NCBI RefSeq assembly: GCF_030547685.1
Contig: NZ_JAUOQM010000038.1
Span: 1 to 64,000 of the forward strand
Direction of reading: 5' to 3'
Origin: Gilvimarinus sp. 2_MG-2023
Lineage (GTDB): Bacteria > Pseudomonadota > Gammaproteobacteria > Pseudomonadales > Cellvibrionaceae
DNA: 64,000 bases
Part shown: positions 2,242 to 31,002 of the stretch, in pieces
Layout of the letters: each line of letters opens with the position of its first letter
Numbering within the stretch: position 1 is the stretch's first letter
Made by a program: the position numbers and the translations under genes
Notes under the pieces: generated by a model
The model's database searches: none
What the model saw: the letters and a program-made list of their open reading frames with translations, nothing else
What the model was told of the DNA's origin: nothing

Positions 2242-2626
2242 TTAATTTTGAATCAACCCGCCCTGAGGACTTGAGCAAAACCACTGGGGTCAGATACCTT
2301 CTTGAAAATTAAGACCGGAAAGCGAAATTTCGGATTAATATGGGTTTCTGACATCACGACACCGTAGAACATGTGAACCAGCTTCCGCATGCTGACGCCT
2401 ATAAACGCCGCTGACGATTTGGCACTCTTAAAGAGTCTGTCATCACCAATTTATGTCAAAAACTGGGATTAGCCCAGCACCCTGCCTTAAAAATTCACTC
2501 TAATTAGGTGGCTAAATTTACTATAACACCCTAAGTGATTGTTCAGTGCTTGCATTCAAAACTGAATGACAGTATTTTCACGATGGGTACAGTATCAAAA
2601 ATAATACGAGTATATAGGGGAATTAG

Positions 2627-3361
2627 TTGATGAAATTCTTACACGTTATCTTTTTAATGGTAGTTGCTTTATATGTGGGTGGGGTAAATGCTCAAACCGC
2701 CATCCCTGCTGTTCAGGGGTTGATCCCGCCAGGGGTGGAACCTGGTGATAAGTTCTATATTATTTTCGCTGGTAGTGATACCGTGGACGGAGCGCAATCA
2801 TCGGCCACTTATCAGGCATATGCAGCTTCTGTAAAAACGAACGACCCTATCACCGACCAAATAAGTGGCTGGATAACTTTATTTGGTCACGATGACTCAT
2901 CCTTGGTCACGACGTCCGCTTTAGATTATACAAATATCCCTATTTACAATCGTAATGGTGATAAAGTGGCCGATAATAGGGCAGAGCTTTTTAGTAGTGC
3001 TCAGGATAGCGCCATTGGTTATGATGAACAGGGTAACCCCAATGCAAATAACATTTGGACTGGATTTAACTTTACCGGAGGCAATACTGGGATAGGTGAT
3101 GATTCGTTGGGGGGGAATGATTCATTGGCTGATGGTTGCCTAGCTGGTAATGCTGCGGAAGCTGATAGTGAGTGGGCTGCATCGGTTTTAGCTGGTGGAA
3201 ATGGTTGTACAGGCGTGAATTTGGGTATGTATGTGATTTCGCCAGCTTTCTTCATTCCTGAGCCTTCTCCGTTACCTATACTCAATATTCCAGGTTTTGT
3301 AATTTTACTAGTGCTAATGGGGCTTATTGCTAGACGTTACTTTGCTCGCTTACGTACCTGA
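2627..3361 (+). CDS. Secreted protein with C-terminal CTERM-like sorting tail
   Basis: This 244-residue protein has a signal peptide (residues 1-22, cleavage after VNA) and a mature region rich in Gly, Asn, Asp and Ser. It ends in a tripartite C-terminus: PEPSPLP around 211-217, a hydrophobic segment of about 20 residues, then an Arg-rich tail (RRYFARLRT). That layout is the signature of PEP-CTERM/IPTL-CTERM proteins handled by exosortases. The middle carries WTGFNFTGG and similar motifs but no catalytic signature; function unknown. A start with GGGGAATTAGTTG upstream is plausible. Direct repeats flank the gene on both sides, so it may have arrived as a unit. Confidence 0.7.
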   Translation: MMKFLHVIFLMVVALYVGGVNAQTAIPAVQGLIPPGVEPGDKFYIIFAGSDTVDGAQSSATYQAYAASVKTNDPITDQISGWITLFGHDDSSLVTTSALDYTNIPIYNRNGDKVADNRAELFSSAQDSAIGYDEQGNPNANNIWTGFNFTGGNTGIGDDSLGGNDSLADGCLAGNAAEADSEWAASVLAGGNGCTGVNLGMYVISPAFFIPEPSPLPILNIPGFVILLVLMGLIARRYFARLRT

Positions 3362-3676: not shown

Positions 3677-4546
3677 TTAACGTTTTCGACGAACGGCATA
3701 CCCGCCCATAGCCGCTAGCATCAAGAACAGTACTAACTGACCCAACGCGCTTGTAGTGGGTAAGGGGGTAGGACTGCCGGAAGGCCCAGACGCAGCATCA
3801 ACGTTTACCGCGATGCCGTCTATATCGTTGATATTAATGCCACTATACGATCCGTCGGCTGAGACAGCAGGAGCCGTGACGACAGTAAATGCTTGGTCGG
3901 CATCGACAACCATGTCGGCGACAGCTGCGACATCAAACGTGGCGGAGAAGCCGTTGCCTGCCGTCAGGACAACCGTGGCCACTGATACAGTGGCTTCACC
4001 GCCGGCAATACTCACATCAACAGAGATATCATTGGCCGGGGCGCCGGAAACTGACATGGTGACAGTTTGTGAGCTGCCCTCGTTGAGAATGAAGGCGCCA
4101 CCACTGGATGGGTTCATAAAAATGTTGGCTATCTCATCATCAAAATTTGTGACATTAACGTTTGGGGTGGGTGCAGCATCGAACGAAGCTGTACCGCCTA
4201 CAGCCGATGTAGTATTGGTAATAGTGTAGGCTACATTTCCATCAGCTACGCCATCATCAACTGGGGTAACGGTAATGAATTGCGGTGTATCCCAATCAGC
4301 GTCTGTAAATGTAAGATCAGCACTAACAGACCCCTCCGATGCATCAACTCCGCTGGTTGCTACTGTTACGACTTCTCCGGCCGATGGCGCCTCGTCTAAA
4401 ACAACTTGGTAAGTAACCGCTGAGCCACCTTCATTGGTAAACAGAGTAGTGGTTGGGTTGATGTTAACTTGAATGGCGGCTGAGCTTAAACAGGAAAAGG
4501 ATAATATAGCTGAGGCAAATAGTGTGCGTTTTAACCAATGATACAT
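3677..4546 (-). CDS. Secreted Calx-beta-like protein with CTERM-like tail
   Basis: 289 residues with a signal peptide (1-24, cleavage after LSSAA). The mature part reads as beta-rich repeats with acidic turns (TFTDADWDTPQFITVTPVDD, FDDE), like the Calx-beta/cadherin-like units found in surface proteins. The C-terminus is LPTTSALG, a hydrophobic segment and the basic end RRKR, which fits an IPTL-CTERM/XrtH-type sorting signal. It is probably exported, processed and held at or released from the cell surface. No enzymatic motif is visible. A clear terminator follows and the gene appears monocistronic. Confidence 0.7.
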   Translation of the reverse strand: MYHWLKRTLFASAILSFSCLSSAAIQVNINPTTTLFTNEGGSAVTYQVVLDEAPSAGEVVTVATSGVDASEGSVSADLTFTDADWDTPQFITVTPVDDGVADGNVAYTITNTTSAVGGTASFDAAPTPNVNVTNFDDEIANIFMNPSSGGAFILNEGSSQTVTMSVSGAPANDISVDVSIAGGEATVSVATVVLTAGNGFSATFDVAAVADMVVDADQAFTVVTAPAVSADGSYSGININDIDGIAVNVDAASGPSGSPTPLPTTSALGQLVLFLMLAAMGGYAVRRKR

Positions 4547-4757: not shown

Positions 4758-4831
4758 ATCATCTCGGCAGTTATATATGCCAGAAGTCGGCGATTATATC
4801 TCCCCACGGATGCGACTAAAATTGAAAAATT

Positions 4832-5427
4832 TTAGATAAACCGTGTCAAAATATTTTCGATTTTCTTGACTAGAAGAGTTCCATCGGGGGTAAAAGTCCA
4901 AATCAATACACCAATATTACACAGAATAGATAACCACAATAGTGTTTTGAAGGGTTGTTTTATCGTTTTATGGCGCAGGCGTGATTGTGCATAGAGTGCC
5001 CCTGGCCAACCACCCAGTAGAGCAAGCATATGCAGGGTATTCTCTGGCACCCGACGGCCCCCACGTTGTGCCGCTCGCTAATCCAATGCGTAACACCAAA
5101 CGTCAGTACCGACAAAACGAGATAAACAGGGAGCAACCAGAGCGGGCCGTTGAAAATAATCAGCGATCCGGCAGTGAGAATCAAAAAAGATAAAGCAAAA
5201 ATCACTGTGGCGGGGGTTTCGCGGGGGTTTAGTACTCGAACACTCGTGGCATTTAGCCTGCCTTTGATGTCTTTTGTGAGCTCAAAATCTACGTTGTCAC
5301 CCACGCCGGGCCGACGCTTTATACGGCGCAACTGTGAAACATGAAAGAAGACCCGTAATTTTACTTCTGACGCTGAAATAAACCCATATCCTTTAGCGTC
5401 GTGCCACTCAATAATTTTTCCTTTCAT
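4832..5427 (-). pseudogene. Broken cold-shock domain + DUF1294 membrane protein
   Basis: The 5' part encodes a cold-shock-like RNA-binding domain (MKGKIIEWHDAKGYGFI, FFHVSQL; residues 1-70) followed by the first membrane segment. The 3' part encodes the classic DUF1294 end (PENTLHMLALLGGWPGAL) in another frame. Reading the second frame upstream gives YALD-stop-RAAQRGGRR, where family members have a Lys-Arg run, so there are two lesions: a one-base frameshift near 5091-5097 and an in-frame TAG (complement of 5078-5080). Two independent defects make a true pseudogene more likely than a sequencing error. The truncated 155-residue product would keep the cold-shock domain only. Confidence 0.8.
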
Positions 5428-24920: not shown

Positions 24921-26642
24921 CTAACGAGCTCTTTGTGTAGAGTACAAATAAGTTAAGCCAGATATCAAAAAAAGCGCGCTTAATAATAAATAAGTTAATC
25001 CGCTTCCGGCCGGAAGTGAGTGTGTTGATCCCAGTGATAATGGATATACTTCACGGCTCACTGTATTTGAGGCTGCATCATTTACATTACCTACCGTATC
25101 ACTAAAGGTACCGGCTCCAACTAAAAGTGTAACGGTACCGTTGGCTAAAGGTGTTAACACAGCGGTGTAGCTGGCACCCGCCCCGGTTAAATTAACTGCT
25201 GCATTGGTAACCGTCAGGTCACTTACCTCAAAATCTGTACTTAACTCGGACAGAGTAATAACCGCAGTTTGATCACCGTTAATGGGACCGGTAAAAGCCC
25301 CAATGCTTATGCTGGGCGGCGTACCATCATAAGTCATCGATACTTGATTGGAGGTAGTGTTGTCATTACCTGCTGCATCGTTAAATGTATTAGCCGCGAC
25401 CGATAGGGTAACTAACCCATCGCTTAAAGGAGTAAGCACAGCGGTGTAACTCGAGCCCGAACCTGACAGGGTCGCGGTGGCGTTGGTTAGGCTTAAGTCG
25501 GCGAGCGTAAAATCGGTACTGTTTTCCGATAGGGTAATCAGCGCGGTTTGGTTGCCGTTAGCAGGCCCGGTAAAAGCCCCAATGCTTATGCTGGGCGGCG
25601 TACCATCATAAGTCATCGATACTTGATTGGAGGCAGTGTTGTCGTTACCTGCCGCATCGTTAAATGTATTAGCCGCGACCGATAGGGTAACTAACCCATC
25701 GCTTAAAGGAGTAAGCACAGCGGTGTAACTGGCGTCCGAGCCGGTCAAGGTGGCGCTGGCGTTGGTTAGGCTTAAGTCGGCGAGCGTAAAATCGGTACTG
25801 TTTTCCGATAGGGTAATCAGCGCGGTTTGGTTGCCGTTTGCAGGCCCGGTAAAAGGCGCTATGGCTATGGTCGGGGACAAAGTGTCCACGGCAATACTCA
25901 CCGTATTGTTAGCGTCGGCCGCATCCTGGTTTGTTTGCCCTGGGCTCACTTCAAAGGCGCCGTTGCCAACGGATATTTGGGCCGTTGCATTAGAGTTGTT
26001 CGTAGGGGTAAAAGTCGCACTGTAGCTTGTGCCTGAACCCGTCACGCTGCTTAACGTTCCCCCGCTAACGCTGATAGCTGCGGCATTTGCCAGTGTGACC
26101 GGTTGATCAATAGTAAAGGTGATTGTCGCAGTGTCACCTGCAGCCACCGCCGCCGAGCTGGATGTGACCCCCACCGTTGGACGCGTGCCCATCAGCGTTC
26201 TCGTATTCAGAGCACTTGTGGTTACAGCGCCCGTAATAGCAAATTCATACTGATAAACGTCAGCACCACCCAACTCACTAGCGCGCCAAATAATGCCAAT
26301 ATAATCATCCGCGGCATAAGTGGCGCCCGTTGGGCCGACTTGGCTAATAATAACCGGAGCTGTATAGCCACAGCTTTCAATCGAAGCTACTGTCACCGTG
26401 GACCCTGGCATAATGGTATCTGTATTTGCTAACCAAAACTCACCTGCGACTAATTGGCTATTGTTTGCCTGATGCTGGATACGGGTGTTACCCGAGGCAC
26501 CCCAGCGGGCCTCAAAACAAACATTAGCTGACGGACCAAGCTGTTCTGCGCTTCCGATGTTGCTTTGAAAAGCCTGAGCCGGGTTGAACAGACAAAACAC
26601 TAAGGCGCATATTAATGTAAGGGCAATCGATGTAGATTTCAT
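24921..26642 (-). CDS. Secreted protein with bacterial Ig-like repeats and C-terminal sorting tail
   Basis: 573 residues with a signal peptide (1-24, cleavage after AQA). An N-terminal region (about 25-150) with two Cys residues precedes four Ig-like units of about 93 residues (starts near 155, 255, 348 and 441), each with ITLSENSTDFTLADLSLTNA, SYTAVLTPL and AGNDNTASNQV-type blocks. The C-terminus has LPAGSGLTYLLLSALFLISG and the basic end STQRAR, a sorting or anchoring tail like those of four other genes in the window. It is probably a surface or released adhesin-like protein. No terminator was seen; it stands alone. Confidence 0.75.
   Translation of the reverse strand: MKSTSIALTLICALVFCLFNPAQAFQSNIGSAEQLGPSANVCFEARWGASGNTRIQHQANNSQLVAGEFWLANTDTIMPGSTVTVASIESCGYTAPVIISQVGPTGATYAADDYIGIIWRASELGGADVYQYEFAITGAVTTSALNTRTLMGTRPTVGVTSSSAAVAAGDTATITFTIDQPVTLANAAAISVSGGTLSSVTGSGTSYSATFTPTNNSNATAQISVGNGAFEVSPGQTNQDAADANNTVSIAVDTLSPTIAIAPFTGPANGNQTALITLSENSTDFTLADLSLTNASATLTGSDASYTAVLTPLSDGLVTLSVAANTFNDAAGNDNTASNQVSMTYDGTPPSISIGAFTGPANGNQTALITLSENSTDFTLADLSLTNATATLSGSGSSYTAVLTPLSDGLVTLSVAANTFNDAAGNDNTTSNQVSMTYDGTPPSISIGAFTGPINGDQTAVITLSELSTDFEVSDLTVTNAAVNLTGAGASYTAVLTPLANGTVTLLVGAGTFSDTVGNVNDAASNTVSREVYPLSLGSTHSLPAGSGLTYLLLSALFLISGLTYLYSTQRAR
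25290..25855 (-). repeat. Near-identical 279-bp in-gene repeats
   Basis: The sequence around CCAATGCTTATGCTGGGCGG occurs at 25299 and 25578, 279 bases apart (93 codons). The two copies are almost identical over their length, indicating recent internal duplication of an Ig-like unit. Confidence 0.8.
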
Positions 26643-28666: not shown

Positions 28667-29412
28667 ATGACTCAACTCAGCCACTCACCTTTATCTCGCT
28701 AGAGCGCTGGCACCGTTACGGCAATGGCACTTATGGCCAGCGGCTGCAATTTAACCGGCCTGTCCTGCCAACAAACAGAAAGTAAGCTTTTAGTAAACGC
28801 AACTCATAACTATTTGTTTATTGATGATACTAGAGATGGCCTCCCAGGCAGCGTTGAAGATGATATTTTAGGGGAGGGGGTTATCTTTGCTGTGAATGGC
28901 CAAAGCGGTTGGAGCCCCGCCTCGGGAAGCTATTCCGGAACAGTCAACGGAGTTAGTATTCCTACCGAGTCTGTTCCCCCTTCATAGGCTTGGCAAATAT
29001 GGAGAGCGCGTTTGCCTCTTACGACTCTGCTAACAATAACTGCCCTTTCAGCGACCTGCTGTCTAACCCGGATCAGGAGTTCTACTATATTAGCCCGGCG
29101 AATTTGGGCTTGATTCCTTCGGATACCGGTGAAATAAGCTTTTCTATCGACGGTGTCACCGCTTCAACAGCCTATCTCACCTTAGTATTGGCCAGCTATA
29201 CCATTTTGAAAGACGAGAGCTCTATCGTAGAAATCGGCTGTGCAGGAAGCGATGATGATGCCCCCTTGCCTGCAGAGTTTACCTTTGTGATGAGTGCCAG
29301 CTGTGGGTTTGTTTCCGCTCTGCCAATTTTCGGCCCGGTGGGTTTGGGTATTATGGCTGTACTGCTGTCTCTTATTGGTGTGGCATCTCAGCGCCGCAAA
29401 GTGCGCTCATAA
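28667..29412 (+). pseudogene. Secreted CTERM-tailed protein gene, broken twice
   Basis: An ATG at 28667 opens a frame with TAG at codon 12 (LSR-stop-SAGTVTAMALMASGCNL, a lipobox-like ASGC). The frame then runs to a TAG at 28985-28987. One base earlier in phase the text continues as FIGLANMESAFASYDSANNN to 29412. Adding one C to the CCCCC run at about 28977 restores the frame. The end, LPIFGPVGLGIMAVLLSLIG plus RRKVRS, is an IPTL-CTERM/XrtH-type tail. So the gene carries a nonsense codon and a homopolymer frameshift. Some start codons inside could still give partial products. Confidence 0.7.
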
Positions 29413-30322: not shown

Positions 30323-30724
30323 CTATGGATTCGTACGGTAGCAGCGAAACCCAACTAGGCTCATAAGCCCGGCGAGTAAAATATAAAATAACGGAGAACC
30401 AACTGGCAATGCGGTAGCGGTAGCCTGCACAATCAAATTCAGGGTTGATTCCTTTTGAATATTATAATCACCCAGTGTTCTGTCATCTTCCAGCTCAACC
30501 CCGGCGAAGATCAATTGCTGTTGCTCGGGCAAATGGCCTTCTCTTTCCTGAATTTTTGACTTCACATTCTCAATAGTATCGTTAGTTTCGACATCTAAAG
30601 TAAATGTTTTGCCGGACTCATCGCGCACAAAAATCTGCATTGCCATGACATTGACTGATAGGAATACACTAAATAATACACATACGACTTTGACGGAAAC
30701 ACAGCCCATCGACTTTGATAGCAT
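30323..30724 (-). CDS. Exported ubiquitin homologue with C-terminal membrane/sorting tail
   Basis: Start is the ATG at 30724 with GAGGTG upstream; 133 residues. A signal peptide (28 residues, ending VNVMA) is followed directly by MQIFV, so predicted cleavage yields a mature protein starting at ubiquitin Met1. Residues 1-72 of the mature part align without gaps to eukaryotic ubiquitin; by my count 49 of 72 are identical. The blocks DTIENVK, LIFAG and [10 protein letters not shown] match. Lysines 11, 27, 29 and 63 are kept; K6 and K33 are Arg and K48 is Val. The terminal LRGG is absent: after residue 72 comes [10 protein letters not shown], a hydrophobic stretch of about 20 residues and a basic end (FRCYRTNP). 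It cannot be conjugated through a C-terminal Gly-Gly as written. Neighbours are a GH18 chitinase and a broken membrane gene. Confidence 0.9.
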
Positions 30725-30935
30725 CAAGCTAACACCTCAAGCGATTCGTTAAGAAATCGGGCTGGTGATCTACGAATACAAGTGTTGTATAAGCCACCCC
30801 TTATGTTGAAAATTGTGCCACGAGTAATTATAAATTACAATTGCCCTTTTTCGGCCTGTCGGGCCATGAGCAGCCCAATGCATCAATCGTGTCGCGTATG
30901 CGGCCATTAATACATAAAGCTGAAGCTAACTCTCA

Positions 30936-30961
30936 TAAAAAAAGCGGCCCCAAAGGGCCGC
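30936..30961 (-). terminator. Rho-independent terminator of the GH18 chitinase gene
   Basis: GCGGCCC (30944-30950) pairs with GGGCCGC (30955-30961); on the minus strand it is followed by seven T bases. It separates the chitinase from the ubiquitin-like gene. Confidence 0.9.
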
Positions 30962-31002
30962 TTATACGTCTGATGTAAACGCTTATATCTTAACGGGTCA
31001 TG

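Follow-up and report, generated by a model that had tools for sequence, protein, structure and literature searches.

The 64,000-nucleotide stretch analyzed here (the window) comprises bases 1–64000 of the 96,856-base contig NZ_JAUOQM010000038.1 (C50) of Gilvimarinus sp. 2_MG-2023. It encodes a 133-residue protein in which a predicted signal sequence is followed directly by ubiquitin and then by a hydrophobic tail. Our preferred reading, to which we give about an even chance (roughly 0.5), is that the protein is a ubiquitin incapable of conjugation that would be displayed on the cell envelope or shed from it, either sorted by exosortase H (XrtH) or bound to the membrane. It would act as a binding effector and belong to a sporadic set found in many phyla. 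To our knowledge, BfUbb, the ubiquitin secreted by Bacteroides fragilis, is the only studied member of these exported bacterial ubiquitins.

The resemblance to ubiquitin is not a matter of chance. The protein aligned without gaps to residues 1–72 of human ubiquitin with 49 identities, and the count in the first-pass annotation of this DNA was exact. PF00240 matched it with E = 1.4e-23 and 82.8 bits (cut-off 25.4), and single-domain ubiquitins of the PDB scored up to 101.8 bits against it. The AlphaFold2 model, made with eight sequences, had a mean pLDDT of 78.8 and a pTM of 0.55 over the whole protein; residues 31–100 were predicted as the ubiquitin fold (block pLDDT 88–93), and helices were placed at residues 11–22 (signal) and 111–130 (C-terminal). 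With this model as query in Foldseek, the top PDB match was ubiquitin (root-mean-square deviation 0.5 over 73 columns). The start codon is the ATG at 30724 or, alternatively, the TTG at 30727.

A Sec-type signal sequence is likely, and the (−3,−1) rule predicts cleavage between V-M-A and the Met1 of ubiquitin, exactly where the first-pass annotation had put the signal-peptidase site. The loss of the conjugation tail was likewise confirmed: ATATALPVG comes after ubiquitin residue 72, and the C-terminal Gly-Gly (LRGG) is missing. Relative to human ubiquitin, the changes L8E, R42Q, K48V, Q49E, H68N, V70I, and R72Q were present, and Met1, I44, and K63 were unchanged. The loss of K48 with retention of K63 and I44 was therefore correctly described, but the I44 surface as a whole was not kept (L8E, R42Q, Q49E, H68N, V70I, and R72Q), and in the L8/I44/H68/V70 recognition patch only I44 remains. 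The F4 side, with Q2, F4, T12, and T14, is unaltered. The altered I44 side, the unaltered F4 side, and the loss of Gly-Gly in most of the set argue against conjugation and the classical reading of ubiquitin as the functions kept here. The proposal that it binds ubiquitin readers or serves as a decoy is doubtful for this copy, in which L8, R42, K48, H68, and R72 are all changed; the decoy idea in particular is weakened by the altered I44 patch (L8E, R42Q, and H68N).

The distribution of exported ubiquitin is rare and scattered. Scanning 84,980 species genomes turned up 285 relatives, the best 80 of which were kept; together with seven viral contigs and nine whole-genome loci (the window included) they made 92 usable rows after five were dropped, two for lack of an MQIF-like start (L003 and L009) and three as duplicates (L004, L008, and L081). 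The near-identical L092–L094, the viral L095 without a signal, and L075, whose signal region is interrupted by a stop codon, were kept among the 92. In 91 of these rows, ubiquitin was preceded by a hydrophobic extension that had a start codon. The (−3,−1) rule held exactly at Met1 in 85, one residue to either side in 7 and 0, and two residues upstream in 44, as expected where small residues alternate. Six of the seven rows failing at Met1 were of one Clostridia type (Gly before Met1, short spacer), and the seventh was the viral polyubiquitin L095. Whole-genome searches were also made without fixed peptides, seeds included. Their 32 loci, which came partly from the same genomes as the first set, held four places twice, and left out L003 (cut by a contig end), carried a hydrophobic segment ahead of ubiquitin in 30 cases (exceptions L009 and L116). 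Carriers made up 6/390 genomes in the order of the window, 5/291 in the class of Ruminococcus albus, 6/395 in the phylum of Seonamhaeicola, and 10/288 in the phylum of an Akkermansiaceae metagenome-assembled genome (MAG). They made up 2/398 in the window's phylum, where the one besides the source genome was L116, a weak match without a signal. Fourteen phylum labels occurred among the 75 labeled tree rows, one row being an archaeal MAG.

Nearly all relatives appear to follow one plan: a signal peptide, ubiquitin as the predicted mature N-terminus, and then the surface-anchoring or secretion module typical of the lineage. In 74 full proteins, Pfam recognized autotransporter (23), dockerin (5), type IX secretion system tail (4), IPTL-CTERM (4), and SLH (3) modules. 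The four IPTL-CTERM proteins above the curated cut-off (L051, L054, L066, and L092; 130–138 residues) have the architecture of the window protein, and L066 bears the name of a cultured strain, Cocleimonas flava DSM 24830. By eye, further ends were seen that we take to be sortase-like, SYNERG-CTERM-like, VPDSG-like, and PEP-CTERM-like. Bare exported ubiquitins were found at L090, L037, L002, and L142. The last forms a tandem of bare exported ubiquitins with L144 (G1411, phylum of Seonamhaeicola), and one of the two ends in LRTPPCN, where the Cys close to the terminus is similar to what is described for BfUbb. A ubiquitin-like head with 43–45% identity was also noted in an Ig-like surface protein on a 0.9-Mb replicon of Pseudoalteromonas shioyasakiensis (NZ_CP077771.1, 864493–864777).

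The attachment of a single head to many unrelated tails would also suit a structural cap, in which the stable ubiquitin fold is an N-terminal module for folding, protection from proteolysis, or adhesion, with no ubiquitin-specific recognition. Buried-core positions were indeed among the best conserved. We consider this explanation rather improbable: the bare exported ubiquitins have nothing to cap, the window protein carries a tail only, and F4, which is exposed in ubiquitin, is kept. Ubiquitin showed less nonsynonymous change per site than the part after it in 19/19 related pairs, and the signal sequence showed more than that part in 13/19. Synonymous sites were saturated in several of these pairs; where both ratios were finite, ubiquitin had the lower one in 11/12 pairs (exception L022/L044).

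Q2 and F4 were each kept in 87/87 distinct domains. The invariance of NIQKESTL in this large set is partly an artifact, because that peptide was searched for; in the 27 domains found without fixed peptides, F4 was kept in 26 and Q2 in 25. This conservation, the purifying selection on relatives with up to 71/72 residues identical to human ubiquitin, and the record titles of several carriers, which are rumen or aquatic bacteria, would fit mimicry directed at eukaryotes, in which ubiquitin-recognizing proteins of protist grazers or of animal or plant hosts bind the surface ubiquitin and uptake or trafficking is altered. Mimicry is nevertheless unlikely. The L8/I44/H68/V70 patch was whole in only 51/87 distinct domains and 14/27 of those retrieved without fixed peptides, besides being altered in the window protein; Gly75-Gly76 was kept in 7/89 and gone in 82/89; a ubiquitin outside the cell would have to reach readers in the cytosol; and the near-identity may stem from repeated recent transfer. 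Mimicry is the more likely for the relatives near human ubiquitin.

The window protein continues for 33 residues after ubiquitin residue 72, including ALPVGS and then a hydrophobic helix with two Arg behind it. The motif, helix, and basic end of a sorting tail are thus all present at its C-terminus, the basic end being weak (two Arg). Five open reading frames (ORFs) in the window passed a filter that required, within the final 40 residues, a hydrophobic segment plus a basic end. The Leu-Pro (LP) pair was not part of the filter, and all five have it ahead of the helix. In likeness to the ubiquitin tail, two of the four other tails were clear (51 and 47 of 20000 block shuffles as high), and the remaining two were less so (1396 and 791).

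XrtH serves IPTL-CTERM proteins, and TIGR04177 located it in the source genome (G000:C41:158035-158499) with 169.6 bits against a cut-off of 86. An XrtH-associated protein (138.4 bits, cut-off 35) is encoded by a gene overlapping that of XrtH (L114:7033-8173), and no substrate-like gene was noticed beside the two in the stretch listed. A search of the genome contigs with PF09721 at E ≤ 0.001 had returned no exosortase; PF09721 scored 33.5 bits against the XrtH protein itself, and the apparent absence of an exosortase was rejected as a false negative. XrtH was above its cut-off in 6/10 genomes with CTERM-type ubiquitin tails vs. 0/19 with other tails (Fisher p = 4.4e-4), the tails having been sorted by eye, with L050 assigned to the CTERM type later than the other nine and L053, with its cyanobacterial PEP-CTERM-like end, grouped with the other tails. 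The comparison covered 30 genome handles, one genome appearing twice (G075 = G785) and being counted once; with L050 moved to the other group, it became 6/9 vs. 0/20 (p = 1.8e-4). On contig C47 of G269, a CTERM-tailed ubiquitin gene (115094) lies ~10.5 kb from the XrtH gene (125861). Sorting of the window tail by XrtH is plausible, because XrtH is encoded in the genome and LP stands before the helix in all five filtered tails.

Several observations weigh against the preferred reading. No CTERM model matched the ubiquitin tail in NCBIfam at E up to 10 or in Pfam at E up to 1, the IPTL-CTERM models TIGR04174 and PF18203 included. The tail type named in the first-pass annotation is backed by the XrtH gene, but the curated models it had recommended did not recognize the tail. 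A search with the tail only (E up to 10) retrieved nothing but itself in the source genome, and nothing below E 0.1 in seven sister genomes. XrtH was below cut-off in four of the ten CTERM-tail genomes (82.7 bits, just under, in G780; 46 in G786; none in G781 and G784). Four of the six XrtH positives (the source genome included; G782 by family name) belong to the window's order, without which the contrast is 2/6 vs. 0/19 (p = 0.05), with relatedness uncontrolled. No immunity or target gene was recognized near the ubiquitin genes. Finally, an antibacterial toxin would account less well than mimicry directed at eukaryotes, or recent transfers, for the strong purifying selection and for identities of up to 71/72 in relatives.

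Some of these points would suit a plain membrane anchor, that is, an ordinary transmembrane helix untouched by XrtH: the CTERM models do not match, only two Arg lie behind the helix, and the tail has no look-alike elsewhere in the genome. We think this somewhat unlikely, given that the LP motif and its position are common to four other tails on the contig, that relatives of the same architecture carry a recognized IPTL-CTERM, and that XrtH is encoded in the genome.

The ubiquitin genes are resident in their genomes, since the GC content at third codon positions (GC3) of the ubiquitin domain tracked the overall GC of the flanking DNA (r = 0.86 over 89 rows). Eukaryotic contamination, which the first-pass annotation had thought unlikely, was rejected on this correlation and on the bacterial signals. 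As an explanation, together with a pseudogene or chance resemblance, it has a negligible probability; no supporting point was found. The signal sequence, tail, and Shine-Dalgarno sequence are of the bacterial kind, and the gene lies on a contig of nearly 97 kb in a genome of 3.76 Mb with a stated completeness of 99.81% and contamination of 0.19%. The tree that had been suggested was built, but it cannot decide the origin or tell a single transfer from repeated ones, with 63/87 inner branches open and 0/87 at 95% support. The window gene was present in 0/7 other genomes of the genus, and it is sporadic and probably horizontally acquired. Four sister genomes have an orthologue of the neighboring chitinase, but in a different neighborhood: the ubiquitin gene and the genes to its left are both missing beside it, so that no clean empty site could be defined.

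Some exported ubiquitins are carried by phages or plasmids. Two scans of a viral contig collection gave 11 contigs with ubiquitin, of which seven had a signal sequence (L090–L094, L096, and L167) and four did not (L095, L165, L166, and L168). Near the signal-bearing ubiquitins, terminase (L091 and L092), tape measure (L096), and tail and DarA-type (L090) genes were found. Ruminococcus albus 7 has its ubiquitin gene on a plasmid of 420 kb. Searched with the window protein and with L090, a plasmid collection of 72,556 records gave 3 matching records, and 50,697 deposited phage records gave none. On the phage-like contig L090, a cyclophilin-type prolyl isomerase gene (2471–3007, minus strand) lies 1.8 kb from the bare signal-ubiquitin gene (4811–5137); the reported target of BfUbb is a prolyl isomerase too, and the pairing may or may not be a coincidence. 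Among 785 neighboring ORFs compared, one gene of no recognized family recurred at seven loci (L019, L033, L050, L057, L074, L088, and L089); the L019 copy had no Pfam match. These loci are labeled Methylophilaceae, Burkholderiales, Bacteroidota MAG, and cyanobacterial MAG, and the labels may reflect binning errors or transfer. The other recurrent clusters were, by eye, general genes or near-copies of one locus. No immunity or ubiquitin-system gene was recognized among the recurrent neighbors, three representatives of which were scanned with Pfam (0 matches).

Under the preferred reading of a displayed or shed effector, Sec would export the protein and signal peptidase I would free ubiquitin Met1 as the mature N-terminus. 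The tail would retain the protein in the inner membrane until XrtH cut it near LP and handed it to the envelope or exopolysaccharide; alternatively, the protein would stay membrane-bound. Outside the cell it would be a folded binding ligand, most likely an effector like BfUbb on a protein of competing bacteria or, less likely for the diverged window copy, a ligand that a grazing or host eukaryote binds with one of its ubiquitin-binding proteins. A later study of BfUbb (Nat. Microbiol. 9:70-84) reportedly identified a periplasmic prolyl isomerase as the target. More generally, and with odds a little short of even, exported ubiquitin may be a phage- and plasmid-borne bacterial device whose head has spread across phyla onto local display systems and is selected for an extracellular, ubiquitin-specific interaction, the window protein being an XrtH-sorted form of it.

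Around the ubiquitin gene, Pfam recognized a GH5-CBM2 cellulase, a Cu/Zn superoxide dismutase, a GH18 chitinase, an alginate lyase, and a Big_12 repeat protein. By this gene content the bacterium is a degrader of polysaccharides and probably marine. The ubiquitin gene may be transcribed on its own, since a terminator-like hairpin follows the chitinase gene; two such sites were found vs. 1.0 expected in shuffles. A frameshift may have split one gene into the two short ORFs at 28724–28987 and 28990–29412, which are in different frames and of which the second has an IPTL-like tail. The features are listed in the table.

Table. Positions of the ubiquitin gene, its parts, and the related features in the window
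Feature	Position	Strand	Basis or remark
Exported ubiquitin gene	30323..30724	−	133 residues plus stop; profile, human alignment, model
Predicted signal sequence, residues 1–28	30641..30724	−	V-M-A before ubiquitin Met1; (−3,−1) rule, hydrophobicity, model helix 11–22
Ubiquitin domain, residues 29–100 (ubiquitin 1–72)	30425..30640	−	profile, PDB scores, alignment, model, Foldseek
C-terminal tail, residues 106–133	30326..30409	−	LP motif, hydrophobic helix, Arg-containing end, no LRGG
Shine-Dalgarno-like GAGGTG	30733..30738	−	8 nt 5′ of ATG; sequence
Terminator-like hairpin	30942..30963	−	after chitinase gene, upstream of ubiquitin gene
Neighboring protein, IPTL-like tail ALPIFGPVGLGIMAVLLSLIGVASQRRK	28990..29412	+	16.0 bits vs. 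cut-off 20.5
Big_12 repeat protein, tail SLPAGSGLTYLLLSALFLISGLTYLY, close to ubiquitin tail	24921..26642	−	Pfam, filter, block shuffles
IPTL-CTERM protein, same contig	3677..4546	−	22.5 bits in genome search (above cut-off), 18.9 as protein (below)
Protein with LP-type tail PLPILNIPGFVILLVLMGLIARRYFARLRT	2627..3361	+	C-terminus filter

Ubiquitin is usually presented as a eukaryotic protein, found in the cells of animals, plants, and fungi. Secreted bacterial ubiquitin is already known from BfUbb; for the multi-phylum set or its sorting tails, no description beyond the BfUbb papers was recognized in searches of an open-license library, subscription papers being mostly outside the search. A scattered set in which ubiquitin is nearly always outside the cell on the anchor of its lineage raises the question of what extracellular ubiquitin does in bacteria, and the broader set around the window protein deserves a separate study. 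With 133 residues and one sorting enzyme, the window protein is a compact case that lends itself to testing, and a named strain of the same architecture exists in C. flava DSM 24830.

The signal of BfUbb is cut exactly at Met1 and the protein has no terminal Gly (PMC5705921); it antagonizes other B. fragilis strains, and the synthetic protein is active (PMC5705921; PMC3352274). The precedent drawn from BfUbb in the first-pass annotation was apt, as both share the signal-to-Met1 design without terminal Gly (PMC5705921). The window protein is like BfUbb, as described in those papers, in its predicted secretion and cleavage at Met1, its lack of terminal Gly, and its patchy presence, BfUbb occurring in only some strains of B. 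fragilis (PMC3352274; PMC5705921). The identity to human ubiquitin is comparable (63% for BfUbb and 49/72 here). However, BfUbb as described there has no tail and ends in Cys, whereas the window protein has 33 further residues with a hydrophobic LP-type tail. Intraspecies antagonism has been tested for BfUbb, which is compared here by its description. The window protein shares with the IPTL-CTERM/exosortase H system (TIGR04174/TIGR04177) an LP-type motif, a helix, and a basic C-terminal end, with XrtH and XrtH_assoc in the genome; IPTL-CTERM is recognized on the same head in L051, L054, L066, and L092, whereas the curated models do not detect the window tail. With eukaryotic ubiquitin (PF00240) it has in common the fold, 49/72 residues, Met1, F4, I44, and K63, and it differs in its predicted export, in the absence of Gly75-Gly76, and in L8E, R42Q, K48V, H68N, and R72Q. 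The secreted ubiquitin of plant-parasitic nematodes, compared by its description in a BfUbb paper, resembles the window protein in the signal peptide ahead and the C-terminal extension, but it is a eukaryotic effector whose 12-residue extension is cut off in the plant (PMC5705921).
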